Shown here: piece by piece, positions 1,390 through 55,200 of the stretch | Layout of the letters: each line of letters begins with the position of its first letter | How positions within the stretch are numbered: the stretch's first letter is position 1 | The notes under the pieces: generated by a model | The model's database searches: none | Told to the model about the DNA's origin: nothing | The model's input: the letters and a program-made list of their open reading frames with translations, nothing else | Translations under genes and position numbers: made by a program | From: an uncultured bacterium | GTDB taxonomy: Bacteria > Desulfobacterota > Desulfobaccia > Desulfobaccales > 0-14-0-80-60-11 | Direction: 5' to 3' | Assembly: GCA_937943575.1 (NCBI GenBank) | Contig: CALEAV010000019.1 | Location: forward strand, 1 to 64,000 | DNA: 64,000 nt

Positions 1390-1974
1390 ATGATGGACAG
1401 GCTGACCACTGGGGAGCTGATCCCCGCCACCGCCTTGCCGGCGCGCCTGTTGGCGCATTTCAGTGTCCCTCCCTCCGTCTGCTACCAATGCAGGAAATGC
1501 TCGGCCGGCTGTCCGCTGACCTTCGCCATGGACCTCCTGCCGGATACGGTCATCCGGCTGGCCTTGCTGGGCCAGGAGGAGACCCTGCTCCGCTGCCGGA
1601 CGATTTGGGTGTGCGCCTCCTGCGTCACCTGCACCACCCGTTGCCCCAACGGCATTGACATCGCCGGGGTGATGGACTGGCTGAAAGAAGAGGCCCTGCG
1701 CCGGGGGGTGGAGGGGCCCCAGCCCGAGGTGGCCACCTTCCACCGCTACTTCCTGGACAGCATCCGCAAAGGCGGCGGCCGCCTGTCGGAGACCGCCCTG
1801 ATGCAGCGCTACACCCTGTTTCAGCTGCGACGGCGCCCCAATCTCAAGGAGCTGCTGCGCCAGCTCAAGCTGGGCTGGGAACTCTTCCGGCGGCGGCGCC
1901 TGCGCCTCTTTGGGCCCCCGGCCCTCAAGGGGCGCCAGGAGATCCGGGCCATCTTTCAGAAAGCGGGGGCATGA
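1390..1974 (+). CDS. hdrC: heterodisulfide reductase subunit C-like iron-sulfur protein
   Basis: About 194 residues. Two clusters of cysteines typical of HdrC are visible near the N-terminus: CYQCRKCSAGCP and CVTCTTRCP, each binding one [4Fe-4S] cluster. In Hdr complexes HdrC carries electrons between HdrA and HdrB in the cytoplasm. A GTG at 1324 would add 22 residues, but it lies upstream of the predicted sigma-54 transcription start, so the first of two adjacent ATGs at 1390 is preferred; the ribosome site there is weak. The C-terminal third is basic and helical. First gene of the operon; hdrB follows after 6 bases. There is no CoM-CoB heterodisulfide in such bacteria, so the natural acceptor is unknown. 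Confidence 0.88.
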   Translation: MMDRLTTGELIPATALPARLLAHFSVPPSVCYQCRKCSAGCPLTFAMDLLPDTVIRLALLGQEETLLRCRTIWVCASCVTCTTRCPNGIDIAGVMDWLKEEALRRGVEGPQPEVATFHRYFLDSIRKGGGRLSETALMQRYTLFQLRRRPNLKELLRQLKLGWELFRRRRLRLFGPPALKGRQEIRAIFQKAGA

Positions 1975-1980
1975 GAAACC

Positions 1981-2817
1981 ATGCAAGTGAGCTACTATCC
2001 CGGCTGTTCCCTGGAGGGCACCGCAGCCGATTACGCCGCCTCCATCGCGGCGGTGGCCCCCCTGGTGGGGGTGGAGCTGGTGGAGCTGGAGGACTGGAAC
2101 TGCTGCGGCGCCAGCGCCGCCCACAGCATCAACCACGAGCTGGCGGTGGCCCTGCCGGGGCGCAACCTGGCCCTGGCCCGGCAGCGGGGGCTGGATGTGG
2201 TGGTCCCCTGCGCCCTGTGCTTCAACCGCCTCAAGGCCGCCGAGAAGGAAGAAGCGCAGGGCGGGCGGGAGGCCGCCCGGAGGGTGAAGATCTGGGACCT
2301 GCTGGACTTCCTCACCCAGGAGACCTTCCTCACCCAGGTCTCCCGGCGGCTGGCCAAGCCCCTGACGGGCCTGAAGGCGGTGGCCTTTTACGGCTGCCTC
2401 TCGGCCCGGCCCCCCCAGATCACCGACAAGCAGGACTGGGAAAACCCCACCGCCATGGACCGGCTGCTGGAGGCCCTGGGCGCCGAGGCCCTGGACTGGT
2501 CCTACAAGACGGACTGCTGCGGCGCCGGGTTGGCGGTGGCCCGGCCGGACATCATCGACACTCTGGTGGGCCGCCTCTACGAGCGGGCCCTGGCCGCCGG
2601 GGCCGAGTGTTTTGTGGTCTCCTGCCAGATGTGCCAGGCCAACCTGGACCTGACCCAGAGCCGCATCTCGGAGAAGGCCGGCAAGCGCTACTATCTGCCG
2701 GTCCTCTATTTCACGGAGCTTCTGGGGCTGGCGCTGGGGCACCCGGAGGCGGCGGGCTGGCTTGCCCGCCACCTGGTGGACCCCCGGCCGTTGCTCACGG
2801 CCAAGGGGCTGTGGTGA
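1981..2817 (+). CDS. hdrB: heterodisulfide reductase subunit B-like protein (two CCG domains)
   Basis: 278 residues, the normal length for HdrB. Two cysteine-rich CCG domains are complete: first PGC at residue 9, NCCGA near 42 and PCALC near 78; second YGC, DCCGAG and SCQMC in the C-terminal half. In methanogen HdrB these residues bind two non-cubane [4Fe-4S] clusters that cleave heterodisulfide. Here HdrB is the likely output site of the complex, passing electrons to a disulfide or thiol substrate or simply to a partner protein. The gene starts 6 bases after hdrC and is followed by hdrA, giving the order hdrC-hdrB-hdrA. Confidence 0.9.
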   Translation: MQVSYYPGCSLEGTAADYAASIAAVAPLVGVELVELEDWNCCGASAAHSINHELAVALPGRNLALARQRGLDVVVPCALCFNRLKAAEKEEAQGGREAARRVKIWDLLDFLTQETFLTQVSRRLAKPLTGLKAVAFYGCLSARPPQITDKQDWENPTAMDRLLEALGAEALDWSYKTDCCGAGLAVARPDIIDTLVGRLYERALAAGAECFVVSCQMCQANLDLTQSRISEKAGKRYYLPVLYFTELLGLALGHPEAAGWLARHLVDPRPLLTAKGLW

Positions 2818-2851
2818 TGGCCTTTCACCTTCGCACACGGACGGGAAGCGT

Positions 2852-5800
2852 ATGACTGCCTCCAACGGAAAAGTGGGCGCCATCGCCGTGGTGGGCGGCG
2901 GCATCGCCGGCATGCAGGCGGCCCTGGACGCCGCCAACGCCGGCTACAAGGTGTATCTGGTGGAGCGGGACATCTCCATCGGCGGGGTCATGGCCCAGCT
3001 GGACAAGACCTTCCCCACCAACGACTGCTCCACCTGCCTCATCTCCCCCAAACTCATCGAGGTGGCCCGGCATCCGGACATCGAGATCATCACCCAGGCC
3101 CAGGTGGCGGGCATCGAGGGCGAGGCGGGGAACTTCCGGCTGACCCTGAATCTGGAGCCCCGCTACATCGACCGGGCCAAGTGCAACGCCTGCGGGGCCT
3201 GCGCCGAGGCCTGCCCGGTGAGCCTGCCCAGCACCTTTGACGAAGGCCTGGGCACCCGGCCGGCGGCCTATCGCCATTTCCCCCAGGCCATCCCCGCCAC
3301 CTACGCCATCAAAAAGCTGGACCGGGCCCCCTGTGTCCGGGCCTGTCCCGCCAACCTGAGCGCCCAGGGCTATGTCCAGCTTATCAAGGTGGGGAAATAT
3401 GCCGAGGCCCTGGCCCTCATCATGGACCGGCTGCCCCTGCCCGGCACCATCGGCCGCATCTGCCCCCACCCCTGCGAAGACCAGTGCCGCCGGGGCGAGC
3501 TGGACGAGCCCGTGGCCATCTGTGCCCTGAAGCGCTTTGCCGCCGACCTGGCGGACTGGCAGAGCCTGCCGGTGCCGGAGATCACCCCCCGGCCGGAGAG
3601 GGTGGCGGTGGTGGGCTCCGGGCCCTCGGGCTTAAGCTGCGCCTATCACCTGGCCCGCCGGGGCTATAAGGTAACGGTCTTTGAGGCCCAAAGCGAGATC
3701 GGCGGCTGGCTGCGCTACGGCATCCCCGAATACCGCCTGCCCCGGGAGGTGCTGGACCGGGAGGTGGACTACATCCGCCGCCTGGGGGTGGAATTCAGGG
3801 TCAACACCCCCATCGGCCCGGGCCTGACGGTGAATGACCTCCTCACCCGGGAGGGCTTTCAGGCCGTCTACCTGGGGGTGGGGGCCCAGGATTCCCTGCG
3901 CCTGCCGGTCCCCGGGGCCGAAGCTCAGGGGGTGCTGTGGGGGGTGGAGTATCTCAAGGAGTCCGCCGCCGGCCGGCCCCAGGACTTCCGGGGCCGCCGG
4001 GTGACGGTCATCGGCGGGGGCAACGTGGCCATGGACGTGGCCCGCACCGCCCGCCGTCAGGGCGGCCAGGTCACCATTATCTGCCTGGAGACCAGAGACG
4101 AGATGCCCGCCTCGCCCTGGGAGGTGGCCGAAGCGGAGCAGGAGGGCATCAGGATCCTGCACCGCTTAGGCGTCAAGGAGATTGTGGCCCCCCAGGGCCG
4201 GGTCAGCGGCCTGGTGCTCAAGGCGGTGGAGCGGGTCTTCGATGAGCAGGGCCGCTTCGCCCCCACCTACCGGGAGGAGGAGACCACCCGCCGGGAGACC
4301 GACGTGGTCATCCTGGCCATCGGCCAGAAGACCAACCTGAGCTTCCTCACCGAGGCGGACGGCATCCGGCTCACCCCCCGGGGCCTCATCGAGGCGGACC
4401 CGGAGACCCTGGCCACCAGCCGGGCAGGGGTCTTCGCCGGCGGCGATGTCACCACCGGCCCTTTCATCGCCATCGCCGCGGTGGCCGCCGGCCGGGAGGC
4501 GGCGGAGTCCATTGACCGCTACCTCTCCGGCCGGGACCTGAGGGAAGACCGGGAGTTTCCCTTGCGGCCCCTCCCCAAGGGCGAAGGCAACTGGGCCCCC
4601 CTGCCGCCCAAATCGGCCCGCAAACCCCGGGCCCGCATGCCGGAGCTGCCCCTGGCCGAGTGGACCAAAGGCTTTACGGAAATCAACCTGGGCTTCAGCG
4701 AGGAGCAGGCCAGAAGCGAGGCGGAGCGCTGCATCAACTGCGGCGTGTGCTCCGAGTGTCTCCAGTGCGTGGCCGCCTGCCAGGCCGGGGCCATTGACCA
4801 CCGCATGCAGCCCGCCCACCGGGAGCTGGAAGTGGGGGCCCTCATCCTGGCCCCGGGCTTCCGGCCCTTCGAAGCGGACCAGAAGGCGGAATACGGCTTC
4901 GGCCGCTACCCCAACGTGGTCACCTCCCTGCAGTTTGAGCGCCTGCTCTCCGCCACCGGCCCCACCGGCGGGCATGTGGTGCGGCCCAGCGACCACCAGG
5001 CCCCCCGCAAAGTGGCCTGGATCCAGTGCGTGGGCTCCCGGGACGCCTCCCTGGGCCGGGAATATTGCTCATATGTGTGCTGCATGTATGCCACCAAGCA
5101 GGCCATCATCGCCAAGGAGCACGATCCCAACATCGAGCCCACCATCTTCTATATCGACATGCGGGCCCAGGGAAAGGGCTTTGACCGCTATTACGAGCGG
5201 GCCAGAGCCTCCCACGGGGTGCGCTATGTCCGGAGCATGATCTCCCGGGTGGCCCAGGACCCCACCACCCGCAACCTGGAGCTCACCTACGTGAGCGAAG
5301 ACAATCAGGTAGTCACCGAGACCTTCGACCTGGTGGTCCTGTCCGTGGGCCTCAATCCCCACCCGGCAGCCCGGGAGCTGGCCGCCACCCTCGGAATCGA
5401 CACCGACCGCTACGGTTACGCCATAAGCCCGCCCCTGCAGATGATTTCCACCACCCGGGAGGGCATCTACACCTGCGGCGTCTTCCAGGCTCCCAAGGAC
5501 ATCCCCGAGACCGTGGGCCAGGCCTCCGCCGCCGCCGGCGCCGCCGCGGCGCTTCTGGCCGACGCCCGGGGCACCCTGGTCACCAAGGAGGAATATCCCC
5601 CCGAGCGGGACATCCTGGCCGAGGAGCCCCGCATCGGCGTCTTCGTCTGCCACTGCGGCATCAACATCGCCGGGGTGGTGGATGTGGCGGCGGTGGCGGA
5701 CTACGCCCGTACCCTGCCCCAGGTGGTCTATGCCGACCACTTCACCTTCACCTGCTCCACCGACTCTCTGGACCGCATGCGCCAGGTGATCGAGGAACAG

Positions 5801-7324
5801 GGCCTCAACCGGGTGGTGGTGGCCTCCTGCAGCCCCCGGACGCACGAGCCCCTGTTCCAGGAAAACCTGCGCAAGGCGGGCTTAAACAAATACCTCTTTG
5901 AGATGGCCAATATCCGGGACCAGGATTCCTGGGTGCACCAGGGCGAGCCCGCCCTGGCCACCGAGAAGGCCAAGGAGCTGGTGCGCATGTCCGTGGCCCG
6001 GGCGGCGCTCCTCAAACCCGTGGGCGACCTCCTCTTCCCGGTGACCCAGAAGGCCCTGGTGGTGGGCGGCGAGCTGGCGGCGCTGCAGGCCGCCCTCACC
6101 ATCGCCGAGGCCGGCTACCCGGTGTATCTCACCGAGCCCGGGGAAAAATTGGGGGCCAGCCTGGCCCGGCGCCAGCACCAGACCCTGGAGGGCCACGCCA
6201 TTCAGCCCTTCATCGCCGGGATGGTGAAAAAGGTGGAGGAGCACCCCCTCATCGAGTGGCTGCCCTTCACCCGCCTTCTGGACGTGAAGGGCCACATGGG
6301 CAGGTTCAAAAGCACCGCCGAAGCCGGCCGCTTCCGCCGGGAGCTGGAGTACGGGGCGGTGGTGGTGGCCACCGGGGCCCAGGAATACCGGCCCACGGAA
6401 TACCTCTACGGCCAGCATGACCGGGTCCTCACCCAGCTGGAGCTGGAGGAGCTCCTGGCGGAAAACCCCCGGGCGCTGCCCGCCGGGGCGACGGTGGTGA
6501 TGATCCAGTGCGTGGGCTCCCGGGAGCCGGAGCGCAACTACTGCAGCCGGATATGCTGCGGCGAGGCGGTGAAAAACGCCCTCCGGATCAAGGAGCTTGA
6601 CCCCACGGCCCAGGTCTTTGTCCTCTATCGGGACATCCGCACCTACGGCCTGAAGGAGCTCTCCTACCGCCGGGCCCGGGAAGCGGGGGTGCAGTTTGTG
6701 CGCTTTGAGCCGGACCGCCGCCCCGAGGTCACCCCGGGGGGCCGGGGCCTGACGGTCACGGTCTTTGACCAGTCCCTGAAGCTGCCCCTGAAACTGGCGG
6801 CCGACTACCTGGTGCTCTCCGCAGGCCTGCGGCCGCACCCGGCCAGCGCCGAGGTGGCCCGGGTCTTCAAGCTGCCGGTGGACGCCGACGGCTTCCTCAT
6901 GGAGGCGCACCTGAAGCTGAGGCCCCTGGATTTTGCCTCCGCCGGCATCTTCCTGTGCGGTCTGGCCCACGGCCCCAAGACCCTGGAGGAGAGCTTGGCC
7001 CAGGCCATGGGCGCTGCGGCCCGGGCCCTGGGGGTGCTCTCCCGGGCGGAGATGTATGTGGCCGGCGCGGTGGCCCAGGTGGACCCGTTAAAGTGCGTCG
7101 CCTGCCTCACCTGCATGCGCACCTGCCCCTTCGGGGTGCCGCAGATGGATGAGAGCGAGGGGGTGGTGCGCATCGACGCCGCCTCCTGCCAGGGCTGCGG
7201 CAACTGCGCCAGCGCCTGCCCCCGCAAGGCCATCGAAGTGAAACACCATCTGGACGAGCAGTTCATCGCCAAGATCCTGGCCGTGAGCGACACCTGGCCG
7301 GCGATGGGCGCCGAGGCGAGGTAG
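2852..7324 (+). CDS. hdrA: giant HdrA flavoprotein with inserted GltD-like NAD(P)H module and duplicated HdrA lobe
   Basis: 1490 residues from ATG 2852 (the frame is open further upstream but overlaps hdrB). Order of modules: HdrA FAD motif VGGGIAG at about 14-20 and FeS motif CNACGACAEACP from residue 111; a GltD/NfnB-like part from about 150 (CVRACP, CPHPCEDQC), with FAD motif VVGSGPSG at about 250, NAD(P)H motif VIGGGNVAMD at about 383 and GGDVTTGP at about 530; a return to HdrA with CINCGVCSECLQC at about 627 and the IQCVGSRD/CCMYATKQA region near 720. A second HdrA lobe follows: VCHCG at about 930, VVGGELAAL near 1066 and IQCVGSRE near 1216. The chain ends with two ferredoxin-type motifs at about 1413 and 1445. 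HdrA is the bifurcating hub of Hdr complexes; the insertion suggests direct NAD(P)H use. Typical HdrA is about 650 residues, so this is more than double. Confidence 0.9.
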   Translation: MTASNGKVGAIAVVGGGIAGMQAALDAANAGYKVYLVERDISIGGVMAQLDKTFPTNDCSTCLISPKLIEVARHPDIEIITQAQVAGIEGEAGNFRLTLNLEPRYIDRAKCNACGACAEACPVSLPSTFDEGLGTRPAAYRHFPQAIPATYAIKKLDRAPCVRACPANLSAQGYVQLIKVGKYAEALALIMDRLPLPGTIGRICPHPCEDQCRRGELDEPVAICALKRFAADLADWQSLPVPEITPRPERVAVVGSGPSGLSCAYHLARRGYKVTVFEAQSEIGGWLRYGIPEYRLPREVLDREVDYIRRLGVEFRVNTPIGPGLTVNDLLTREGFQAVYLGVGAQDSLRLPVPGAEAQGVLWGVEYLKESAAGRPQDFRGRRVTVIGGGNVAMDVARTARRQGGQVTIICLETRDEMPASPWEVAEAEQEGIRILHRLGVKEIVAPQGRVSGLVLKAVERVFDEQGRFAPTYREEETTRRETDVVILAIGQKTNLSFLTEADGIRLTPRGLIEADPETLATSRAGVFAGGDVTTGPFIAIAAVAAGREAAESIDRYLSGRDLREDREFPLRPLPKGEGNWAPLPPKSARKPRARMPELPLAEWTKGFTEINLGFSEEQARSEAERCINCGVCSECLQCVAACQAGAIDHRMQPAHRELEVGALILAPGFRPFEADQKAEYGFGRYPNVVTSLQFERLLSATGPTGGHVVRPSDHQAPRKVAWIQCVGSRDASLGREYCSYVCCMYATKQAIIAKEHDPNIEPTIFYIDMRAQGKGFDRYYERARASHGVRYVRSMISRVAQDPTTRNLELTYVSEDNQVVTETFDLVVLSVGLNPHPAARELAATLGIDTDRYGYAISPPLQMISTTREGIYTCGVFQAPKDIPETVGQASAAAGAAAALLADARGTLVTKEEYPPERDILAEEPRIGVFVCHCGINIAGVVDVAAVADYARTLPQVVYADHFTFTCSTDSLDRMRQVIEEQGLNRVVVASCSPRTHEPLFQENLRKAGLNKYLFEMANIRDQDSWVHQGEPALATEKAKELVRMSVARAALLKPVGDLLFPVTQKALVVGGELAALQAALTIAEAGYPVYLTEPGEKLGASLARRQHQTLEGHAIQPFIAGMVKKVEEHPLIEWLPFTRLLDVKGHMGRFKSTAEAGRFRRELEYGAVVVATGAQEYRPTEYLYGQHDRVLTQLELEELLAENPRALPAGATVVMIQCVGSREPERNYCSRICCGEAVKNALRIKELDPTAQVFVLYRDIRTYGLKELSYRRAREAGVQFVRFEPDRRPEVTPGGRGLTVTVFDQSLKLPLKLAADYLVLSAGLRPHPASAEVARVFKLPVDADGFLMEAHLKLRPLDFASAGIFLCGLAHGPKTLEESLAQAMGAAARALGVLSRAEMYVAGAVAQVDPLKCVACLTCMRTCPFGVPQMDESEGVVRIDAASCQGCGNCASACPRKAIEVKHHLDEQFIAKILAVSDTWPAMGAEAR

Positions 7325-7328
7325 CCCC

Positions 7329-7826
7329 ATGGAAGCCTCCAAAGTGATCTCCGCCGCTCCGGAAGCGGAATTTGTCCCCAAAATCCTGGCGTTAGTGTGC
7401 ACCTACTGCACCTACACCGCCGCGGACATGGCCGGCTCGGCCCGCATGCAGTACCCGCCCACCGTGCGCATCGTCAAATATCTGTGCACCGGCCGCATCG
7501 ACATCCTCCACATCCTCAAGGCCTTCGAGGCGGGGGCGGATGCGGTGATGGTGAGCGGCTGCGAAGCCGGGAGCTGCCACTTCCTGGAGGGGAACCTGCG
7601 GGCCCGGGAACGGGTGGAATATGCCAAAAAGCTCATTGCGGAAGTGGGCCTCGAACCCGAGCGCCTGGAGATGTTTGAGGTGGCGGCCTCCGACGCCCCC
7701 AAGTGGGTCCAGGTGGTGCGGGAGATGACGGAGAGGGTGGAAAAGTTGGGTCCCAGCCCGCTGCACCGGGTGGGCGCAAGCTTCGCCCAGGTGGAAGCGG
7801 CAGTTCAACGGGTGGTGGCACAATGA
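7329..7826 (+). CDS. mvhD: MvhD/FlpD-type [2Fe-2S] electron-transfer subunit
   Basis: 165 residues. MvhD-family cysteines are present: CTYC near residue 24 followed by TAADMAG, CTGRID near 54, and GCEAGSC near 80. In methanogen Mvh-Hdr and in bacterial Hdr complexes MvhD relays electrons between a partner oxidoreductase and HdrA. The ribosome site GAGGTAG overlaps the hdrA stop codon. The stop overlaps the start of metV (ATGA at 7823-7826), so translation is probably coupled. Its place between hdrA and metVF fits a bridge between the MTHF reductase module and HdrABC. Confidence 0.9.
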   Translation: MEASKVISAAPEAEFVPKILALVCTYCTYTAADMAGSARMQYPPTVRIVKYLCTGRIDILHILKAFEAGADAVMVSGCEAGSCHFLEGNLRARERVEYAKKLIAEVGLEPERLEMFEVAASDAPKWVQVVREMTERVEKLGPSPLHRVGASFAQVEAAVQRVVAQ

Positions 7827-8503
7827 TCATCGCAGAGCGCAAGCCTTTTAGAGAGATCCAGGACATGGTGGCCCCCTACGGCAACGTCCTCATCGCCGGC
7901 TGCGGCACCTGCGTGGCCGTCTGCCTGGCTGGGGGCGAAAAGGAAGTGGGGCTGTTGGCGGCCCAGCTGAAACTGGCCCGCAACCTGGCGGGGCAGACCG
8001 GCCGCCTGGGCGAGATCACCGTGGAGCGCCAGTGCGACCGGGAGTTCATCGAGCCCCTCAGGGAGGTGGCGACCGACTATGAGGCGGTCATCTCCACCGC
8101 CTGCGGCGCCGGGGTGCAGTTTCTGGCCGCCCTGCTCCAGGACAAGCCCGTCTTTCCGGCCCTCAACACCACCTTCATCGGGGTGAACGAGGCCGCCGGC
8201 CACTACACCGAGCGCTGCCGCTCCTGCCACCAGTGCTATCTGGGGATCACCGGGGGCATCTGCCCGGTGACCATGTGCACCAAGGGTCTGCTCAACGGCC
8301 CCTGCGGCGGCCCCATCGGGGGGAAGTGCGAAGTGGACCCGGCGCGGGACTGCGCCTGGTGTCAGATCTATGAGCGCCTGGAAAGCCAGGGGCGCCTTCA
8401 GCAGATCGAGGCCATTTTGCCGCTCCACCCCCACAGCCGCACCACCAGCCCGGGAACGGTGATTCACCCTGCCTATTTAAGGAGATACGCCGCCCATGAG
8501 TAA
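7823..8503 (+). CDS. metV: MetV, cysteine-rich partner of methylene-THF reductase
   Basis: 226 residues from ATG 7823, chosen because it forms an ATGA overlap with mvhD; the frame is open upstream inside mvhD. Cysteine-rich blocks are visible: CGTCVAVC near residue 30, then CRSCHQC, CPVTMC, GPCGG and CAWCQIYE in the second half, as in the MTHFR C-terminal zinc/FeS family. In acetogens MetV is required with MetF for methylene-THF reductase activity and carries FeS clusters. The 3' end overlaps metF by 8 bases, and the metF ribosome site GGAG lies at 8481-8484. Confidence 0.88.
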   Translation: MIIAERKPFREIQDMVAPYGNVLIAGCGTCVAVCLAGGEKEVGLLAAQLKLARNLAGQTGRLGEITVERQCDREFIEPLREVATDYEAVISTACGAGVQFLAALLQDKPVFPALNTTFIGVNEAAGHYTERCRSCHQCYLGITGGICPVTMCTKGLLNGPCGGPIGGKCEVDPARDCAWCQIYERLESQGRLQQIEAILPLHPHSRTTSPGTVIHPAYLRRYAAHE

Positions 8504-9380
8504 GCTTGAGGACGCCCTGAGCGCCGGGGGGTTTCCCCTGGTGGTGGAAGTGAAGCCGCCCAAAGGGGTGGAAGTGGCCAAGATGCTGGCCCCGGTGACG
8601 GGCCTGAACGGCCAGGTGACGGCCTTCGGGGTGCCGGACAACGAGCACGCCAAGATGCGCCTCTCCGCCCTGGCTGCCGCCCGGCTGGTGAAGGAGGCCG
8701 GGGGCGAGCCCTTGATGCTCCTCACCTGCCGGGATCGCAACCGCCTGGCCCTGGAGAGCGACCTCTTGGGCGCCGCCGCCCTGGGAGTGGAAAATATCCT
8801 GGTGCTGAGCGGCGATTACGTCCATCAGGGGGACCACCCGGACGCCAAGCCGGTCTATGACGCCGACTCGGTGCAGCTTTTGATGGTGGCCCGGGAGCTC
8901 ATGGCCGGCCGGGACAGCGCCGGCCACGCCCTGAGCGGCGCGCCCCGGTTCTTCCTGGGGGCGGTGGTCATCCCCGAGGCCCAGCCCCTGGGGCCCCAGC
9001 GGCTGAAATTCCGGAAAAAACTGGAGGCCGGGGCTGATTTCTTTGTCACCGCACCGATCTTTGACCTGGAGAAATACCGGGCCTTCCGGAAAGAGGCGGT
9101 GCCCGAGGGGGTAAAGATCCTGGCCTGCCTCAAGGTGCCCTCCGCCGACGAGGTGGAAAAGGCCGCCCGGGGCGAGCTCCGGAAAGTGTATTCCCTGCCG
9201 CCGGCGGTGATTCAGGAACTCTCCGGGGGGGACCCCGAGGAGGTGCTGGCCAAGGGCGCGGCTGTGGCCGGGCGCCTGGCCAGGAAGCTCCGGGAGGAGA
9301 AGCTGGCCGACGGCATCTATCTCAAGGCCAAGGGCCGGCCGGATCTGGCGGCGGCATTCCTTAAGGCCGCCGGGTTCTGA
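8496..9380 (+). CDS. metF: 5,10-methylenetetrahydrofolate reductase
   Basis: 294 residues, a TIM-barrel FAD enzyme of the MTHFR family. Near the N-terminus it has VVEVKPPKG; later TCRDRNR and ILVLSGDYV are the usual folate/FAD-site strands, and AGADFFVTAP is the C-terminal barrel signature. It interconverts methylene-THF and methyl-THF in the methyl branch of the Wood-Ljungdahl pathway. In a sulfate reducer that oxidises acetate it would run in the oxidative direction; in an autotroph it would run reductively. It overlaps metV and closes the hdrCBA-mvhD-metVF block, the gene set known from the Moorella thermoacetica MetVF-HdrCBA-MvhD complex. Confidence 0.92.
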   Translation: MSKLEDALSAGGFPLVVEVKPPKGVEVAKMLAPVTGLNGQVTAFGVPDNEHAKMRLSALAAARLVKEAGGEPLMLLTCRDRNRLALESDLLGAAALGVENILVLSGDYVHQGDHPDAKPVYDADSVQLLMVARELMAGRDSAGHALSGAPRFFLGAVVIPEAQPLGPQRLKFRKKLEAGADFFVTAPIFDLEKYRAFRKEAVPEGVKILACLKVPSADEVEKAARGELRKVYSLPPAVIQELSGGDPEEVLAKGAAVAGRLARKLREEKLADGIYLKAKGRPDLAAAFLKAAGF

Positions 9381-9461: not shown

Positions 9462-10706
9462 ATGAAAGCGCACGTTCAGCATCCGGTGGTGGTTTTGGGC
9501 GGCGGCATTGCCGGCCTCACCGCCGCCCTGGAGCTCAACCGGGCCGGAGTGCCGGTGGTCCTGGTGGAGAAGAGCCCCTTTTTCGGCGGGCGGGCGGCCA
9601 GCTTTGTCTGCAAGGCCACGGACAGTTGCCAGAAATGTGGCGCCTGCCGGGTGGAGCAGGCCCTGAGGGAGCTCTTCGAGACGCCGGAGATCCGCTGCCT
9701 CCCCCATACCCAGGTGACGGCCGGCCGCCCGGTGGAGGGCGGCTTTCAGCTGACCCTGGTCAGCCGGCCCCAGGCGGTGGACCCGGGCCTTTGCACCGAC
9801 TGCGGCCTCTGCCTCGAGGAGTGTCCGGCCCCCGGGGCCATCCTGACCACGGTCTCCGCCGAAAATCACCCGCGGTTCGCCGTGGAGCCGGAAAAGTGCC
9901 TCCACTACCGGGACGGTTCCTGCCGGCGGTGCGAGGAAGTCTGCCCCACGGGGGCCATGGACCTCAGCCGCAGGGAAGCCACCCTGGAGCTCACCGCCGC
10001 CGGGGTGGTGGTGGCCACCGGCTATCAGCCCTCCCCGCCGCCTTCCCGCTCGGTCTTTGCCCGCGCCGGCCTGCCCCAGGTGATCACCGGCTGGGAGCTG
10101 GAGGAGACCCTGCGTCAGGGTGGGCCGCTCCTCCGGCCCTCGGACGGCCGTCTGGTGCGGCGGCTGGCCTTCATCCAGTGCGTGGGCAGCCGGGACCGGG
10201 AGCACGCCTACTGCTCCCGGGTCTGCTGCGGCTATGGCCTGAGGCTCGCCCGCCTGGTGCGCCACCGCTGGCCCGAGGTGCAGGTGAGCACATTTTACAT
10301 GGATTTGCAGAACGTGGGGCCCGACCCCCAGGAGTTCGAGGTGGCGGTGCGCCAGGAGCTGGAGCTCATCCGGGCCCTGCCCGGGGATGTGGCCACCACT
10401 ACCGACGGCAGCCTGGTCCTCCGTTTCTTTGACGACACCAGCGGCAAGGCCCTCTTTCGGGTGGTGGACCTGCTGGTGCTGGCGGTGGGGATCGCCCCAG
10501 GGCCGGACAACCCCCGGCTGGCGGAGATCCTGGGCCTGCCGATGACGGCGGACGGCTTTCTGGGCTCCGGCAACGGTGCCGTCTCCCCGCCCCCTGGCGT
10601 CTTTCTGGCTGGCACTGCCACCGGCCCCTTCAGCATCCTGGAATGCATCACCCAGGCCACCAAGGCGGCCGAACAGGTCTGCCGGTATCTGGAGGTGTCC
10701 CCATGA
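9462..10706 (+). CDS. HdrA-like (QmoA/HdrA family) FAD and iron-sulfur protein
   Basis: 414 residues, close to the length of QmoA. N-terminal FAD motif VVLGGGIAGLTAA is followed by FFGGRAASF and CQKCGACR, as in HdrA. Two FeS motifs follow near residues 110-165: CTDCGLCLEECP and CRRCEEVCP. The HdrA/Qmo signature IQCVGSRD with CSRVCCGYG lies near residue 240. The C-terminus has the usual GVFLAGTATGP FAD end. It is a cytoplasmic electron-transfer flavoprotein, probably a partner of the next gene, whose start overlaps its stop (ATGA). It lies 81 bases after metF. There is no aprAB or membrane QmoC nearby, so an HdrA-like role in this complex is favoured over a Qmo role. Confidence 0.82.
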   Translation: MKAHVQHPVVVLGGGIAGLTAALELNRAGVPVVLVEKSPFFGGRAASFVCKATDSCQKCGACRVEQALRELFETPEIRCLPHTQVTAGRPVEGGFQLTLVSRPQAVDPGLCTDCGLCLEECPAPGAILTTVSAENHPRFAVEPEKCLHYRDGSCRRCEEVCPTGAMDLSRREATLELTAAGVVVATGYQPSPPPSRSVFARAGLPQVITGWELEETLRQGGPLLRPSDGRLVRRLAFIQCVGSRDREHAYCSRVCCGYGLRLARLVRHRWPEVQVSTFYMDLQNVGPDPQEFEVAVRQELELIRALPGDVATTTDGSLVLRFFDDTSGKALFRVVDLLVLAVGIAPGPDNPRLAEILGLPMTADGFLGSGNGAVSPPPGVFLAGTATGPFSILECITQATKAAEQVCRYLEVSP

Positions 10707-13609
10707 CCCCCTTGAATCCCGAAGCCAAAGTCCACATCGTCCTCATGCACGGCCCGGAATTGGGCGGCGCCGGCCTCGATCCTAAGGAGCTGTGCCGCGG
10801 GCTGGAGGAGCTGCCCCACTGCCGGGTGCTGGCGGTGGACGCGGCCCGGCCGGAGGCGGAGCAGCGGCAGGCCATGGCGGATTTCCTGAGCACGGCGGAC
10901 CGCCAGCCGCTGGTGGTGGCCGCCCGGGAGCCGGAGCATCGGGCCGCCGCTCTCTTCCGCCTGCAGGAGGAACTGGGGCTGGCTCCCTCCCTGGTGGCGC
11001 CGGTGGACCTGAGCCCGGCCCTGGACTATCCTGAGCTGGACCTGCGCCGGGCCAAAGGGGCGGAGCTCATCCGCCAGGCCGCGGCCCAGATGAGCCTTGC
11101 CCTGCCAGTGGGCACCCAAACGGTGCCGGTGAGCCGCCAGGTGCTGGTGTGGGGGGATTCCTACGCGGCGCTGCGGACCGCCCTGGAACTGGCCCAGCGG
11201 GGCTACCCCGTGCTCCTGGCCGGCCCTGTACCGGCGCCCAGCCCCCTGGCCTTTGAGTACGCCCGGGGTACTGCCGGCGGGGAGGCCTTGACCGAGCTCA
11301 TCCGCCAGGTGCGGGAACACCCTCTGGTCAAAGCCCTGTATGAAGTCGAGCTTCTGGAGTTCCAGGGCACTGCGGGCCGGTTCGGGGTCAAGCTCCGCAC
11401 CCCTCAAGGACGGGTGGACGAAATGGTGGGCGCAGTGGTGCTGGCCCCGGAGCTGCACCGCCAGCCCGCCCTCACCTGTTATCCGGCGCCGGAGGATCCC
11501 CGCATCCTCTGCCAAAACCGGCTGGAAGCCCTCCTGTCGGACAGCCCGGAGAGCCTCCCGGGGATGACCGCCTTCCTGGTGGGTCTGGCCGGAGAGGGGC
11601 ACCCCCTGTCCCTGAAGCGGGCCCTGGCTGCCGCCCGGCGGCTGCTCTCCGCCGACAGGGAGGTCTGCCTGCTGGTGGGGAACGCCAAACTGGCCGGACC
11701 CGGCATCGAGCGGGCCTTGAGAGAGGCCCAGGAAGCGGGGCTGGTGCTCATCAAACTCAAGGACTGCCCCACCTTCCAGGTGAGCGAGGCCGGGGTGAGC
11801 CTCAGCTTCTATGAGCCTTCCCTGGGAAAGCAGGTCACCCTGCACCCGGACCTCATCGTCCTGGATGACCACTACCGGGCGGCGGCGGACAATGCCGGGC
11901 TGGCGGAAAAATTCCGGCTGGAGCCCGGCCCCCGGGGCTTCCTCCAGGATGACAACGTGCACCTGCTGCCGGTGAACACCTACCGCCGGGGCATCCTGAC
12001 GGTGGGACCGGCCCGGGGGCTTTTGGACCTGGAGGAGACTGAGGCCGACATCCAGGCTGCGGTGCTGGCCATCGAGGAGCTGCTGGGGGAGGGCTACGCA
12101 AAGGCCCCTCAGGGACGGGCACTGGTGGACCGGGGCAAATGCGTCCTGTGCCTCACCTGCTACCGGTACTGCCCCCATGGCGCCATCACCTGGGACAGCC
12201 GGGCCGTCATCGACGAACTGGCCTGTCAGGGCTGCGGTATCTGTGCCAGCCAGTGCCCCAATGACGCCATCCAGCTGCAACCCTGCCGGGATGACCAGGT
12301 GGCGGCGCAACTGACCGCCCTGGACCCGGGTCTCAGCCCCCGCATCGTGGCCTTCCTGTGCCGCAACTCCGCCTGGGAGGCCTACCAGTCCGTGGTGCGC
12401 CTCAAGGCCGGCATCCTGCCCCCGGGCTTTGCGGCGATCAAGCTCCCCTGCGCCGGCAAGGTGGACCCGGAATACCTCCTGCAGGCTTTCGCCGTCGGGG
12501 CTGACGCCGTCCTGGTGCTGGGCTGCCCCAGGGACAACTGCAAGTCCGGCCACGGCAACCACTGCGCCGAAAAATCCGTGACCCAGGTGCAGGCCATGCT
12601 GGCGGAGGCGGGCATCGATCCCGTGCGGCTCGCCTTTCAGTCCCTGGCCGCCAACGGCGTGGGGGATTTCCTGGACGCCGTGGATCATTTTCTGGCGGAG
12701 CTGGTCGCCCTGGCGCCGGCGCCGGACGAGGAGCATCCCCTGAGGCTCGCCGTGGGCACCGCCCTTACCCGGCCCATCACCCATCGGCCCCTGGCGGTGG
12801 AGATCCGGGAGCTGGCCCTGGAGATCCACCCCCGGGATGCCGAGGACCTGGGACTCAAGCCCGGCGAAACCGTGACCGTGGGCGCCCGGGAGGAGAAGCT
12901 CCAGGCCACGGTGCGGCTCAATCCCCGGGTGCGGCCGGGCACGGCCTATCTGCCCGCCTCTCTGGACCAAAGTCTGGTTCAGCGTCTGGCGGCGGAGGCG
13001 CAGGCAGCCCTGCCCCGGTTCCGGGGTCTGGCGGTTTACCTGGCCAGGATGACGGAGGAGTTCGAGGAGATCTTCGGGGTGCGGGTACCCGTCTCCCGCT
13101 ATTTCCATCAGGGGCACACCTGGGTGGCCCTGGAGGGCGGCGGCCGGGTGCGCCTGGGGCTGGACGACTTCTCCCAGAAGCTCCTGGGCCCCGGCGACGG
13201 GTTGCAGGTGCCCCTGGTGGGCGAGGAGATCCGCCGCAATCTCGCCCACCTCATCCTTTATCGTGGTAAGAACCTGGCCCCGGTGCTGGCGCCCCTCTAT
13301 GGGGTGGTGGAGAAGGTCAACCCCAGGGTGCTGAGCCGTCCCTCCCTGGTGCACGACGACCCCTACGGGGACGGCTGGATCCTGGAGGTGGCCCCCATCA
13401 GCCTGGAGCCTGACCTCGCCACGCTCATCCCCGGCGCCCAGGGAGTCTCCTGGATGGAGGAGGAGACCCTGCGCCTGATCAACCTCCTGGAGCCGGGCCT
13501 GGGCGCCACCCTCCAGGCCGGCGGTGTGCTCCTGGACGATATCTACGGGCAGTATCCGGACCTGGGGTGGGAACGGCTGGTAAAGGAATTCCTGCGCAGC
13601 GCCAAGTAA
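10703..13609 (+). CDS. five-module fusion: degenerate HdrA / 2x[4Fe-4S] / MvhD-like / molybdopterin-binding-like / GcvH-like
   Basis: 968 residues from ATG 10703, overlapping the previous stop. Residues 1-475 look like an HdrA/pyridine-nucleotide-disulfide-reductase fold, but the first Rossmann motif is replaced by VWGDSYAALRTALE. Two ferredoxin motifs follow: CVLCLTCYRYCP from C480 and CQGCGICASQCP near 510. From about 549 an MvhD-like domain has LPCAGKVDP and GCPRDNC, but the first CxxC is reduced to CRNS. Around 700-765 RDAEDLGLKPGETVTV matches the molydop-binding beta barrel of formate dehydrogenase-type enzymes. From about 795 a glycine-cleavage H-like domain runs (HQGHTWVAL, LGLDDFSQKLLGPGD, VHDDPYGDGW); K856 aligns with the lipoyl lysine of GcvH. 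An MvhD fusion suggests electron transfer; the lipoyl-type domain suggests a swinging dithiol carrier. Function is inference. Confidence 0.8.
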   Translation: MTPLNPEAKVHIVLMHGPELGGAGLDPKELCRGLEELPHCRVLAVDAARPEAEQRQAMADFLSTADRQPLVVAAREPEHRAAALFRLQEELGLAPSLVAPVDLSPALDYPELDLRRAKGAELIRQAAAQMSLALPVGTQTVPVSRQVLVWGDSYAALRTALELAQRGYPVLLAGPVPAPSPLAFEYARGTAGGEALTELIRQVREHPLVKALYEVELLEFQGTAGRFGVKLRTPQGRVDEMVGAVVLAPELHRQPALTCYPAPEDPRILCQNRLEALLSDSPESLPGMTAFLVGLAGEGHPLSLKRALAAARRLLSADREVCLLVGNAKLAGPGIERALREAQEAGLVLIKLKDCPTFQVSEAGVSLSFYEPSLGKQVTLHPDLIVLDDHYRAAADNAGLAEKFRLEPGPRGFLQDDNVHLLPVNTYRRGILTVGPARGLLDLEETEADIQAAVLAIEELLGEGYAKAPQGRALVDRGKCVLCLTCYRYCPHGAITWDSRAVIDELACQGCGICASQCPNDAIQLQPCRDDQVAAQLTALDPGLSPRIVAFLCRNSAWEAYQSVVRLKAGILPPGFAAIKLPCAGKVDPEYLLQAFAVGADAVLVLGCPRDNCKSGHGNHCAEKSVTQVQAMLAEAGIDPVRLAFQSLAANGVGDFLDAVDHFLAELVALAPAPDEEHPLRLAVGTALTRPITHRPLAVEIRELALEIHPRDAEDLGLKPGETVTVGAREEKLQATVRLNPRVRPGTAYLPASLDQSLVQRLAAEAQAALPRFRGLAVYLARMTEEFEEIFGVRVPVSRYFHQGHTWVALEGGGRVRLGLDDFSQKLLGPGDGLQVPLVGEEIRRNLAHLILYRGKNLAPVLAPLYGVVEKVNPRVLSRPSLVHDDPYGDGWILEVAPISLEPDLATLIPGAQGVSWMEEETLRLINLLEPGLGATLQAGGVLLDDIYGQYPDLGWERLVKEFLRSAK

Positions 13610-13626: not shown

Positions 13627-13672
13627 AGAGCCTGAGGCGGCGGCAGTACCCCCACGCCGTCCCTCAGGCTCT
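13627..13672 (+). terminator. hairpin terminator of the hdr-met operon
   Basis: AGAGCCTGAGG at 13627-13637 pairs perfectly with CCTCAGGCTCT at 13662-13672, with further pairing inside (GGCGG/CCGTC). It starts 17 bases after the last stop codon. On the minus strand the stem is followed by TTTTCC, so it may also stop transcription from the convergent regulator operon. Confidence 0.8.
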
Positions 13673-36129: not shown

Positions 36130-39100
36130 TCATTTCGGCGAAACCGGGGCCGTCCCCCCGGGTTCCCCGGTGCGGGTGAACATGACATAAAGGACGGGGC
36201 AGAGAAACAGGGCCACAAAGATCCCCAGGGCCAGGCCGCCGATGGCCGAGGCGGCCATGGGCTGGAGCATCTCCCCCCCCTCCTCCAGGTTCAGGGCCAA
36301 CGGGATAAAGCCGAAAATCACCGCCAGGGCGATCATCAGCCGGGGCCGGAAGCGGATCCGGGCGGCTTCCATGACCGCCTCCAGGGCTGACAGGCGCCTC
36401 TCCCGGCGCAACTCCTCCGAGTAGGTGATGAGGAGCACCCCTTCATTCACCTTGGCGGCCACCACGATGAGCACCCCGATGATCACCGTGGCCCCCAGGG
36501 GCAGACCGGTGAGGTGGAGGGCGTAGACCATGCCCGCCAGACAGAAGGGCACGCAGGCCAGAATGACCAGGGGCAGCCGCAGGCTATTGAACTGCACCGC
36601 CAGCACCACGAAGGCGAAGAACAGCGCAAAGGCCAGGATGAAAAGCACCGACCGCTGCATGTCGGCCATCATCTGGGCCTGGCCGCCGAAGGAGATCTCA
36701 TAGCCCACCGGCAGGTTGATTGTGCCCAGGGCCTCTTTCAGTTCGCCCAGGGCCTGGCCCACGCTCACCCCGGCGGCGTCCCCCCGGACGATGACCTCCT
36801 TCACCTGATTCTCCCGGGCGATTTCCACCGGCCCCACCGCCGGGATCACCCGGGCCACGTCCTTGAGGCGCAGGTAGCCGCCCTGGGCGCAGTTCAGCAC
36901 CAGGTTTTCCACCGCCTCCTGGGAGGTGAAGTGCTCCTCGGGGATCATCACCCGGATGTTATAAAAATAATCCCCTTCCCGGTAGCGGGTGGCCACCTGG
37001 CCGCTGATGGAGGAGCGCACCGCGGCGGCCACCTCCGCCAGGGAGACCCCCAGCTCCGCGGCCCGCACCCGGTCCACCTCCACCTGGTATTCGGGTTTGG
37101 TCATGTCCATGGAGACGTAGACGTTGGTGAAATGGGCCAGCCTGGTCATGGCCTCGGAGGTCTGCCGGGCCAGGGCGAAGAGCTGATTCAGATCCTGGCC
37201 CTTGATCTTGACCTCGATATCCGCCTCCCCCAGTTTGCGGATGCCCTTCATGGGGGAGGGCATCACCATGGGGACGGCGCCGGGCATGGCCAGGGGAGCC
37301 AGGGTCTTCTTCAGCTGGGCCACATACTCCCTGGTGCTGATCTTTCTGGCATGGCGGGGCACCAACTGGATGTCGATCTGCCCCTCGTTGGCGATCTCAT
37401 AGGTGGCCAGGCCCCAGACCTTGCCCCCGGCCATGGTGAGATAGCTCTCCACCAGGGGGTCGCCCTGGAGTTTCTCCTCCACCCGGGCCAGAATCCGGTT
37501 GGTCTCCGCCAAGGCCGCCCCGGTGGGCAGCTTCACCTTGACCATGACCCGGCCGTCGTCCATGCGCGGCAGAAACTCGCTGCCGAGAAACGGAAAGAGG
37601 GAGACGGCCCCCAACAGGACCAGCGTGAAGGCCCCCAGGACCCACCGGCGATGGCGGAGGATGTGGCGGAGGGACATGATGTAGGCATCCGTCAGGGAGC
37701 TAATCCACCGGAGGAAGCGGCTCTCCCCATGGGCCCCCCTTTCCCGGCCCACGATGATGGCCGTGAGCATGGGGGTGAGGGTGACGGCCAGGGCCAGGCT
37801 CACCACGAACACCCCGGAGATCACCAGGATGAGCTCCTTAAAAAGCAGGCTGGTGAGGCCCGGGACCAGCAAAAAGGGCAGAAACAAAGCCAGGAAGGAG
37901 AGGGTGGCCGCCAGGATGGCCGGCCCCACCTCCCGGGTGCCCCGCTCCGCCAGGGAGGCCCCGTCCTCCTGGGGATGCAGACGCCGCAGCCGGGTGATGT
38001 TCTCCAACACCACGATGGAGTTGTCCAGGACCACGCCGATGGCCACCACCAGGCCGCCCAGGGAGAAGATGTTCAGGGAAAAGTCCCCCAGCTTCATCAG
38101 GGCGAAGTTGAGGATCAGGGTGATGGGCAGGGCCAGGAGGAGCACCCAGACGTGGCGCCAGCTCCCCAGGAAGAGATAAACGATGAGCATCACCAGCACC
38201 GCGGCCTCCACCGCGGCGTTGCGCACCCCGGCCAGGGCGGCGGAGACATAGTCGGCCTGGTTCTCCACCATCCCCAGCTTCACTCCCTCCGGCAGCGACG
38301 GGATGAGCTGTTGGACCCTCTGGCTCACCGCCCGGGCCACCTCCACGGTGTTGGCGTCCGCCTGCTTGAGGACGCTCAGCTTGATGGCGGGCTTGCCCCC
38401 CAGGCGGGTGATGACCCGGACTTCCTCGTGGGCGTCCTCCACCTGGGCCACGTCCTGGAGGTAGACCTTGCCCGAGCTGCCGTTGGCCAGGACCACATGG
38501 CGGATGTCCTCCAGGGAGCGGTACTCCCCCATGGTGCGGGCGATGAACTCCCGGCGGCCCACGGTCACCCGGCCGCCGAACTGTTCAATGTTCTCCTCCT
38601 GGAGCCGTTTCATCACCGCCGCCAGGGTGAGGTTGAATTTCTCCAGGGCGTTGGGGTCCAGGTGGACCCGGATCTCCCGCTTGAGGCCGCCGACGATGTC
38701 CGTGCCCGCCACCCCGGGGACCGCCTGCAACTGATACTGCAGCCAGTTTTCCGTCCAGGTGCGCAACCTGGTCAGATCCCAGGTGTCGGAACTGATGGTG
38801 AGCTGCACCACCGGCAGCTGCGAGGGGTCAGCCTTGAAGATCACCGGCGGGTCGATGTCCTTGGGGAGCTTGCGGGCCACCCGGGCCATGGCCGCCAGGG
38901 CGTCCTGGTAGGCCACGTCCACGTTGACCCCGTATTTGAAGTTGGCCAGCAGGGTGTACATCCCCTCGATGGAGGAGGACTCAAGATAGTCCAGGTTGTC
39001 CACCATGGCCATCTGCTGCTCTATGGGATCGGCGATATTGGTGCTGATCTCCTCCGGCGTGGCGCCCCGCCACCAGATATGCACCTTGATGAGGGGATAG

Positions 39101-39222
39101 GTGATATCCGGCAGGAAATTCACCGGCAACAGGACAAAACTGTAGACTCCCAGCACCACCAGGGCGAGGGTGATGACTGCGGTGGCGATGCGCCGCCTGA
39201 CGGCATAAGTGGTTATTCTCAC
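36130..39222 (-). CDS. RND efflux transporter, inner-membrane pump
   Basis: 1030 residues from GTG 39222, overlapping the adaptor stop codon. The RND layout is complete: first helix about 11-32, two large periplasmic loops, and twelve helices. The proton-relay helix 4 reads VVLDNSIVVLENI, with the second aspartate of AcrB-type pumps replaced by asparagine; helix 10 keeps the lysine (AAKVNEG). It works with the adaptor and TolC-like channel encoded just upstream. Substrate is not shown; the neighbouring ZraP-like proteins and Zra-type two-component genes suggest metal or envelope stress. Confidence 0.9.
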   Translation of the reverse strand: MRITTYAVRRRIATAVITLALVVLGVYSFVLLPVNFLPDITYPLIKVHIWWRGATPEEISTNIADPIEQQMAMVDNLDYLESSSIEGMYTLLANFKYGVNVDVAYQDALAAMARVARKLPKDIDPPVIFKADPSQLPVVQLTISSDTWDLTRLRTWTENWLQYQLQAVPGVAGTDIVGGLKREIRVHLDPNALEKFNLTLAAVMKRLQEENIEQFGGRVTVGRREFIARTMGEYRSLEDIRHVVLANGSSGKVYLQDVAQVEDAHEEVRVITRLGGKPAIKLSVLKQADANTVEVARAVSQRVQQLIPSLPEGVKLGMVENQADYVSAALAGVRNAAVEAAVLVMLIVYLFLGSWRHVWVLLLALPITLILNFALMKLGDFSLNIFSLGGLVVAIGVVLDNSIVVLENITRLRRLHPQEDGASLAERGTREVGPAILAATLSFLALFLPFLLVPGLTSLLFKELILVISGVFVVSLALAVTLTPMLTAIIVGRERGAHGESRFLRWISSLTDAYIMSLRHILRHRRWVLGAFTLVLLGAVSLFPFLGSEFLPRMDDGRVMVKVKLPTGAALAETNRILARVEEKLQGDPLVESYLTMAGGKVWGLATYEIANEGQIDIQLVPRHARKISTREYVAQLKKTLAPLAMPGAVPMVMPSPMKGIRKLGEADIEVKIKGQDLNQLFALARQTSEAMTRLAHFTNVYVSMDMTKPEYQVEVDRVRAAELGVSLAEVAAAVRSSISGQVATRYREGDYFYNIRVMIPEEHFTSQEAVENLVLNCAQGGYLRLKDVARVIPAVGPVEIARENQVKEVIVRGDAAGVSVGQALGELKEALGTINLPVGYEISFGGQAQMMADMQRSVLFILAFALFFAFVVLAVQFNSLRLPLVILACVPFCLAGMVYALHLTGLPLGATVIIGVLIVVAAKVNEGVLLITYSEELRRERRLSALEAVMEAARIRFRPRLMIALAVIFGFIPLALNLEEGGEMLQPMAASAIGGLALGIFVALFLCPVLYVMFTRTGEPGGTAPVSPK

Positions 39223-52135: not shown

Positions 52136-52203
52136 GGGAGGGGAGCGTGAGGCGAGGGCGGGGGAGCCAGGCTCTCCCGCCTCCCCTCACTCCCAGGCAG
52201 CCT

Positions 52204-55200
52204 ATGAACCTTGCAGGGCCTTTTATCCGGCGGCCGGTGATGACCACCCTGGTCATGCTGGGCCTGTTGCTCTTCGGGCTGATCTCCTATCGCTATCTGC
52301 CGGTGAGTCAGCTGCCCAACGTGGATTTTCCCACCATTTTGGTGAGCGCCCAGCTTCCCGGGGCCACGCCGGAGACCATGGCGGCGGCGGTGGCCACCCC
52401 CCTGGAGCGGGAGTTCTCCACCATCTCCGGGCTCGAGAACCTGACCTCGGTGAATGCCCACGGCTTCAGCCAGATCACCCTCACCTTCGCCCTAAGCAAG
52501 GACCTGGACGCCGCGGCCCAGGATGTGCAGGCGGCCATTTCCAAGGCGGCCCGCTTCCTGCCGCCGGAGATGCCCGCTCCGCCCACCTACTCCAAAGTGA
52601 ACCCGGCGGACCTGCCGGTGCTGTATATCGCCCTCACCTCCGCCACCCTGCCCCTCTCCACCATTCATGAGTATGCCGACACCCTCATGGCGCAGCGCAT
52701 TTCCATGGTGGAGGGGGTGGCCCAGGTGCAGGTCTTCGGCGCCCAGAAGTATGCGGTGCGCATCCAGGTGGACCCCAGGGCCCTGGCGGCCCGGGGCATC
52801 GGGCTGGACGAGGTGGCCCAGGCGGTGCAGCAGGCCAATGTCAACCTGCCCACCGGGCTCCTCTCCGGACCCCACCAGGCCTTTTCCCTGCAGGCCACCG
52901 GCCAGCTCACCCGGGCCGCGGCCTACCGGCCCCTCATCGTCGCCTACCGCCAGGGGCATCCGGTGCGCCTCCAGGACGTGGGGCAGGTGCTGGACAGCGT
53001 CGAGGAGGACAGGATCGCCAGCTGGTACAAGCAGTCCCGGGGGGTGGTCCTGGCCATCCTGCGCCAGCCGGGCACCAACACCATCGAGGTGGTCAACCGG
53101 GTGCGCCGGCTCCTTCCCACCTTCCGCAGCCAGATCCCCGGCGCAGTGGACCTGGTGCTGCTTTACGACCGCTCCGAGTCCATCCGGGAGTCCGTGCGGG
53201 ACGTCAAATTCACCCTGGTCCTGGCCGTGGCCCTGGTGATCCTGGTCATCTTTCTCTTCATCCGCAACCTTTCGGCCACGGTCATCCCCTCCCTGGCCCT
53301 GCCCCTGTCCATCATCGGCACCTTCCCGGTGATGTACCTGTTCGGCTACAGCATCGACAACCTGTCCCTCATGGCCCTCACCCTGGCAGTGGGCTTTGTG
53401 GTGGATGACGCCATCGTGGTCCTGGAAAACATCGTCCGCCACCTGGAGATGGGCAAGGGGCGCCTGCAGGCGGCCCTGGACGGCTCCCGGGAGATCGGCT
53501 TCACCATCGTCTCCATGACCCTGTCCCTGGCCGCGGCCTTCATCCCCATCCTGTTTATGGGGGGTATTCTGGGACGGCTGCTGCATGAATTTGCGGTGAC
53601 CATCATCGCCGCCATTTTGGTCTCCGGGGTGGTCTCCCTTACCCTCACCCCCATGCTCTCCAGCCGCTATCTCAAGCCCCCCAAAGAGGAGCATCACGGC
53701 CGCCTCTACGCCTTGAGCGAGCGCTTCTTTGACCTCCTGCTCCGGGGCTATGACATTACCCTGAAGGCGGTCCTGGCCCGGCCCGGGATCACCCTCCTGG
53801 CCTCCGGCGTCATCCTGGCGGTGACGGTCCACCTTTTTGTCGTGATGCCCAAGGGGTTTCTCCCCAGCGAGGACCAGGGCACCATCTTCTGCTTCACCGA
53901 AGCCGCCCAGGGCATCTCCTTTGAAGCCATGAAGGAGCGCCAGCAGGAGGTGGCCCGGGTGGTCCTCCGCCATCCGGCGGTGCGCTCCTATTTTTCCGCC
54001 ATCGGCGCCAGCCCCCACAACCCGGCGGTCAATACCGGGCGCCTGTTCATCCAGCTCAAGCCCCGCCACGAGCGGCCCCACGTGGATGAGGTGATCAGGG
54101 AGCTCCGGCCCCTTTTGGCCGGTATCCCCGGCATCACCGTCTATCCCCAGAACATGCCGCCCATCCGCATCGGCGGCACCCTCACCAAAAGCCTCTACCA
54201 GTTCACCCTCCAGGGGCCGGACATCCAGGAGCTCTACCACTACGCCGGGCTGCTGGAGGCCAGGATGAAGGCCCTGCCCGGCCTGATGGATGTCAACAGC
54301 GACCTCCTCATCAAAAACCCCCAGGTGGAGGTGGTCATCCACCGGGACAAGGCGGCGGCCCTGGGCCTCTCGGCCCATAAAATCGAGGAGGCCCTCTACA
54401 GCGCCTATGGCACCCGGCAGGTCTCCACCATCCTGGCCCCCAACAACCAGTACAAGGTCATCCTGGAGCTGCTGCCGCAGTACCAGGCCGACCCGGCGGC
54501 GTTGCCTCTGCTCTATGTCCGCAATAATACCGGCCGGCTGGTGCCCCTGAACGCCGCCGTGAGCCTGAAGCGCAGCTATGGGCCCCTGACCGTCAACCAC
54601 GCCGGTCAGCTGCCGGCGGTGACCCTGAGCTTCAACCTCAAGCCCGGGGTGGCCTTGAGCGAGGCGGTGGACGCCGTCTCCCGGCTGGCCCGGGAGACCC
54701 TGCCCGCCACCATCACCACCGGCTTCCAGGGCACCGCCCAAGCCTATCAGAGCTCCCTGAAGGGCCTGTGGCTCCTCCTCCTCATGGCCATCCTGGTGAT
54801 TTATCTCATCCTGGGCATGCTCTATGAAAGCTTCATCCACCCCCTCACCATCCTCTCGGGCCTGCCCTCCGCCGGGCTGGGGGCCCTGGTGACCCTCCTC
54901 CTCTTCCGTCACGACCTCAACATTTATGCTTTTGTAGGCATCCTCATGCTGGTGGGCATCGTCAAGAAGAACGCCATCATGATGATCGACTTCGCCCTGG
55001 AGGCCCAGCGCAGCCAGGGCCAGGCGCCCGCCGCGGCCATCTGCCAGGGGGCGCTCATCCGCTTCCGGCCCATCATGATGACCACCATGGCGGCCCTCAT
55101 GGGCGCTTTGCCCATTGCCCTGGGGTTCGGAGCCGGCGGCGAAGCCCGGCAGCCCCTGGGCCTGGCGGTGGTGGGCGGCTTGCTGTTCTCCCAGCTCATC

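Follow-up and report, generated by a model that had tools for sequence, protein, structure and literature searches.

The window analysed here, a 64,000-nucleotide stretch of a contig from an uncultured bacterium of the order Desulfobaccales, carries on its forward strand six genes in the order hdrC-hdrB-hdrA-mvhD-metV-metF, as read from the positions of the open reading frames and their Pfam families. The product of hdrC (1390-1974; Fer4_17/Fer4_8) is HdrC-like, with the CxxCxxCxxxCP motif of a [4Fe-4S] cluster present twice; it matched the HdrC model TIGR03290 at 1.2e-14, which is under the cut-off, and its syntenic orthologues share 42-90% identity. The gene hdrB (1981-2817) matches the Pfam family CCG in two stretches. 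Both CCG motifs are intact in all 13 homologues that we aligned (invariant cysteines C9, C41, C42, C77, C80, C139, C179, C180, C215 and C218), and because both are complete, two non-cubane [4Fe-4S] clusters are predicted for HdrB. A long form of hdrA (2852-7324; Pyr_redox_2/Fer4/Fer4_20) follows, and then mvhD for the [2Fe-2S] subunit (7329-7826; FlpD, 2.9e-48), metV for the Fe-S/zinc subunit of methylene-THF reductase (7823-8503; PF12225, DUF5981, 3.6e-33, with invariant cysteines in the alignment) and metF for its catalytic subunit (8496-9380; MTHFR, 4.3e-21). The presence of all six genes in one cluster identifies an Hdr-type (type IV) methylene-THF reductase. Related loci repeat the six-gene order with MetF identities down to about 40%, so that the order is not due to chance. 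The sequence places the ATGA overlap of mvhD and metV at 7823-7826 and an 8-base overlap of metV and metF at 8496-8503. These overlaps indicate translational coupling, but the fixed stoichiometry that the original prediction had drawn from them does not follow.

The long HdrA, of 1490 amino acids, is a composite. Matches to methanogen HdrA of solved structure show one HdrA core made up of residues 12-155 and 625-899, and residues 157-600 (3320-4651 on the forward strand), which match GltD/NfnL-like chains, are set midway into the inserted ferredoxin domain of that core as an NAD(P)H-binding insert. A second HdrA copy follows, with its N-terminal domain at residues 921-1073 and its C-terminal ferredoxin domain at 1344-1478. 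The second Rossmann motif of the insert ends in the acidic ICLETRDEMP (4079-4108). In Rossmann folds, NADPH enzymes usually carry an arginine at the position that is acidic here, and for this reason we predict from this one motif that the insert would use NADH rather than NADPH. The acidic motif is common to the window and the Desulfobacca and Chloroflexi loci, whereas another clade has YRRSRAEM.

The hdrCBA-mvhD-metVF set named in the original prediction is thus borne out gene by gene in order, coordinates and Pfam family, but its extent is not, as the operon runs past metF into two more genes of the same run, the first of which starts after 81 bases, and the unit comprises eight genes. The first of the two (9462-10706, forward strand) lies next to metF and encodes a QmoA-like flavoprotein of the HdrA family (414 amino acids), and an ATGA overlap joins it to the second (10703-13609, forward strand), which encodes a QmoB-like protein of 968 amino acids with matches to FlpD (4.7e-27), GCV_H (2.7e-16) and Molydop_binding (1.2e-9). 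In the QmoB-like protein, an HdrA core that has degenerated is combined with two [4Fe-4S] motifs, an MvhD domain and MopB-C-like and GcvH-like domains. The tail made up of the last two domains (12773-13606) occurs in the window's genus and in the loci L015 and L017, and the locus L024 has a stand-alone GcvH-like protein upstream of hdrA. A lipoate-carrying function of this tail was rejected, since the lipoyl lysine is kept in three loci of the genus and replaced in L015, L017 and L024; the AlphaFold model of the GcvH-like tail was only moderate (pLDDT 70.6).

The pair resembles QmoAB in being tandem HdrA-family flavoproteins, the second with an MvhD-like domain. It differs in that the QmoA-like and QmoB-like proteins are only 31% and 23-24% identical, respectively, to the QmoA (aprAB-linked) and QmoB of the same genome, in that no gene for the membrane subunit QmoC was found in the eight-gene operon, and in the additional MopB-C-like and GcvH-like domains of the window's lineage. 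The pair is thus not an orthologue of QmoA/QmoB accompanied by a membrane QmoC, and we rejected its interpretation as a true Qmo paralogue on the grounds of these identities and of the missing QmoC. As the pair stands in the operon without this subunit, a link to quinone would need a further protein.

Directly after the QmoB-like gene lies a strong hairpin (13627-13672, forward strand; -36.6 kcal/mol, z -3.8) with a weak U tract, which is probably the end of the transcript. A pattern-based terminator scan gave no more matches than chance and missed this hairpin because of the loop limit of the scan, and a promoter scan found nothing. Farther along the window there are two large genes for RND-type efflux transporters, one at 36130-39222 (Pfam ACR_tran) and the other, judged by its length and start only, at 52147-55311.

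Window-type metF orthologues were present in 14 of the 29 genomes of the host's order that were searched, and a QmoA-like gene adjoins metF in every one of them; 14 of the 15 genomes without the window-type metF also lack the QmoA-like gene, and the one exception has it on a broken 3-kb contig that starts inside that gene (Fisher's test, 2e-7, with kinship ignored). For a wider comparison we used 80 loci from named genomes. As these are the 80 that scored best against a single MetV alignment, the arrangements among them are not unbiased frequencies. The nearest named genomes by MetV are Syntrophobacterales and Deltaproteobacteria MAGs, with a best identity of 93%. Among the 80 best matches, both modules occur together in the host's order, in Desulfarculus, in Desulfomonile and in other deltaproteobacterial MAGs; Chloroflexi, Planctomycetes and many Desulfobacterales have hdr-mvhD-metVF but not the pair; and in about ten loci of Desulfobacterales metVF is followed by the pair without hdrCBA. 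This last arrangement speaks for MetVF itself as the partner of the pair. A QmoA-like/QmoB-like pair was also found in a distant genome, G058, near a ferredoxin-domain protein (L141:9040-12334), where we found no metF. The pair there must serve another donor, and it is thus a more general electron module that is not specific to MetVF.

In three loci of the order, HdrC/HdrD-like genes stand just after the pair (L015 and L030, both with an in-frame TGA, and a homologue in L143), whereas in the window's genome the HdrD-like homologue stands apart from the pair, on C4. The HdrC/HdrD-like protein is a possible next electron carrier. An in-frame TGA within the motif PE(TGA)GHAY divides the HdrD-like gene into two open reading frames (L120:8765-10123 on G000:C4, L015:6788-8227 and L030:4434-5729), which would probably be read through as one selenocysteine protein. 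The mvhD genes of five relatives (L016, L017, L021, L022 and L023) also have an in-frame TGA, at the codon where the window has the cysteine of SGCEAG, suggesting that their MvhD is probably a selenoprotein. A tRNA-Sec is present in the window's own genome.

That the host reduces sulfate, as had been proposed from its desulfobacterotal setting, is confirmed: aprA and dsrA score above the curated cut-offs, and qmoABC-like genes, their order read by sequence, lie beside aprA (L009). The genome also contains the Wood-Ljungdahl genes fhs and folD together with CODH/ACS (CdhC/AcsB and AcsC), so that every gene group for which the original prediction advised a search was found, and a role of the cluster in folate biosynthesis only was rejected, because the remaining methyl branch and CODH/ACS are present. 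The order includes Desulfobacca acetoxidans, which completely oxidizes acetate by the CODH pathway and has been described as using acetate and no other tested donor (PMC3156406). Its locus L030 is orthologous to that of the window and has the same eight genes. The oxidation of acetate by the host itself, which had also been considered, is therefore supported by kinship with this species of the same order and its orthologous cluster, and goes no further than that kinship. No acetate CoA-transferase, and no AMP-forming synthetase over the cut-off, was found in the window's genome, which has several ADP-forming acyl-CoA synthetase-like proteins.

The likeness to the MetFV-HdrABC-MvhD cluster of Moorella thermoacetica, noted in the original prediction, holds in the published descriptions to which we compared the locus: the six genes have the same order (accessions listed in PMC6085437), and the Moorella HdrA is likewise a tandem HdrA interrupted by GltD (PMC9430772), published to residue 1487. 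The window differs from Moorella in the two additional HdrA-family genes after metF, in its sulfate-reducing host and in a second metVF beside fhs. Hdr-type reductases in sulfate reducers are not new either. In silico, D. acetoxidans was credited with a Met complex in 2018 (PMC6085437), and Seep-SRB1g with a metF-HdrABC in 2023 (PMC10553843), so that the six-gene core was already known, D. acetoxidans included; in the available parts of these two descriptions, unlike in the window, a Qmo-like pair is not mentioned. A fusion of HdrA to a GltD-type NADH domain (an HdrA/glutamate synthase fusion), followed by mvhD, was described in 2009 as HdrL of Desulfobacterium autotrophicum, but in the available part of that paper (PMC2702500) it is not placed in a metVF cluster. 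Among the open-licence papers covered, we found no report of a Qmo-like pair beside metF. What appears to be new here is the attachment of this pair to the known Hdr-metVF core, and the pair could be the missing electron outlet.

We consider it about an even chance that the eight-gene operon encodes a bifurcating methylene-THF reductase of the Hdr type (type IV), which has an additional arm from the HdrA family and works with NAD+ and a higher-potential acceptor. MetF and MetV would oxidize methyl-THF in acetate oxidation, or reduce methylene-THF in CO2 fixation, and the long HdrA would receive the electrons at its flavins by way of MetV and MvhD. One electron would leave through the GltD-like domain as the NAD(H) port, and the other would pass via HdrCB and/or the QmoA-like/QmoB-like pair to the higher-potential acceptor, for which menaquinone and a thiol/disulfide site on a partner resembling HdrD are candidates. 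Gene content and order, architecture, conservation and the background of Wood-Ljungdahl and sulfate-reduction genes are observed; that the subunits form a complex, the direction, the specificity for NADH, which second acceptor is used and what the pair does are inferred, and one published result counts against a complex, namely that MetVF of Sporomusa was not co-purified with Hdr-MvhD, yet pull-downs showed contacts (PMC9430772). In the oxidative direction, two methyl-THF would yield one NADH and one pair of electrons at the level of MKH2. The original prediction spoke here of confurcation from methyl-THF to two acceptors, which is the wrong word, because one donor that feeds two acceptors is bifurcation. 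With potentials of -200 mV for methylene/methyl-THF, -320 mV for NADH and -74 mV for menaquinone (PMC6895022, PMC13040438), the oxidation of methyl-THF by NAD+ alone costs 23 kJ/mol, while the split between NADH and MKH2 gives -0.6 kJ per methyl-THF, about zero at standard potentials.

True confurcation, in which a plain Moorella-type complex runs in reverse with methyl-THF and reduced ferredoxin from CODH/ACS jointly reducing NAD+, and the Qmo-like pair is separate and merely co-regulated, seems unlikely to us. It reverses the original proposal of 2014 (PMC5861303), it is near equilibrium (-1.9 kJ with ferredoxin at an assumed -450 mV), and many hdr-metVF loci do without the pair. Both coupled schemes are thus energetically feasible. 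However, ferredoxin is not the partner in Moorella, for which MQH2 was proposed as co-reductant (PMC13040438), and it was without effect in the acetate oxidizer Thermacetogenium, where methyl-THF was oxidized with viologen or AQDS and not with NAD+, and for which a link of Hdr to quinone was proposed (PMC6895022). Confurcation also leaves unexplained why the pair so strictly adjoins metF, even where hdrCBA is absent. The published data on Moorella and Thermacetogenium lean towards a quinone-level partner, and for that side the Qmo-like pair is the candidate that suggests itself.

The same NAD-independent oxidation in Thermacetogenium is consistent with a scheme that lacks bifurcation altogether, in which menaquinone or an HdrD/DsrC-type thiol receives all electrons of methyl-THF through the Hdr and Qmo-like subunits, and the GltD domain either is not used or has a regulatory role. 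The transfer from methyl-THF to menaquinone is favourable (-24 kJ/mol), and the HdrC/HdrD-like genes adjoining the pair in L015, L030 and L143 fit this scheme, but the long HdrA forms examined retain both the NAD(P)H-binding domain and the tandem HdrA, and we regard such a scheme as quite improbable.

The window set is also not the only one in the genome, where metF occurs twice more, both times together with a metV, which makes three metVF sets in all. One of the other two lies in L008 (G000:C7), the third elsewhere. In L008, metVF is divergent to fhs, and a CODH-family gene comes after this metVF; beyond fhs lie NfnA/NfnB-like genes and an HdrA-like gene, and an FrhB-like gene is also at the locus, making it a candidate for a second Hdr- or Nfn-linked methyl-branch unit. 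The fhs-linked pair and the window pair share 37% identity in MetF and 49% in MetV, and the former recurs across the family, while the window-type set is present in only about half of it. At least two sets are therefore candidates for the enzyme of the pathway, and the window set need not be the only or the main catabolic methylene-THF reductase; the fhs-linked metVF could be the main one. That the sets are specialized by direction, the window cluster being reductive (autotrophic, with H2/CO2) and the fhs-linked metVF oxidative, or vice versa, would agree with the three sets and their distribution, but we give it little weight, as the acetate-using D. acetoxidans retains the orthologous cluster. 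For a species that used only acetate among the donors tested, this favours an oxidative role, at least in D. acetoxidans itself.

Returning to the bifurcating reductase with an HdrA-family arm, its most specific form is a tentative proposal that we regard as rather unlikely: the Qmo-like pair would be the port for the second acceptor, and the eight-subunit complex would split the electrons of methyl-THF between NAD+ and menaquinone or the thiol pool of sulfite reduction, so that sulfate respiration would be linked directly to the methyl step in the oxidation of acetate. A second acceptor for the electrons of Hdr-type methylene-THF reductases has been looked for since 2014; on its identity depends how the cost of the methyl step is met in acetogens and in sulfate reducers that oxidize completely. 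The conserved pair after metVF, with or without hdrCBA, is a concrete candidate, and one that is present in the cultured D. acetoxidans.
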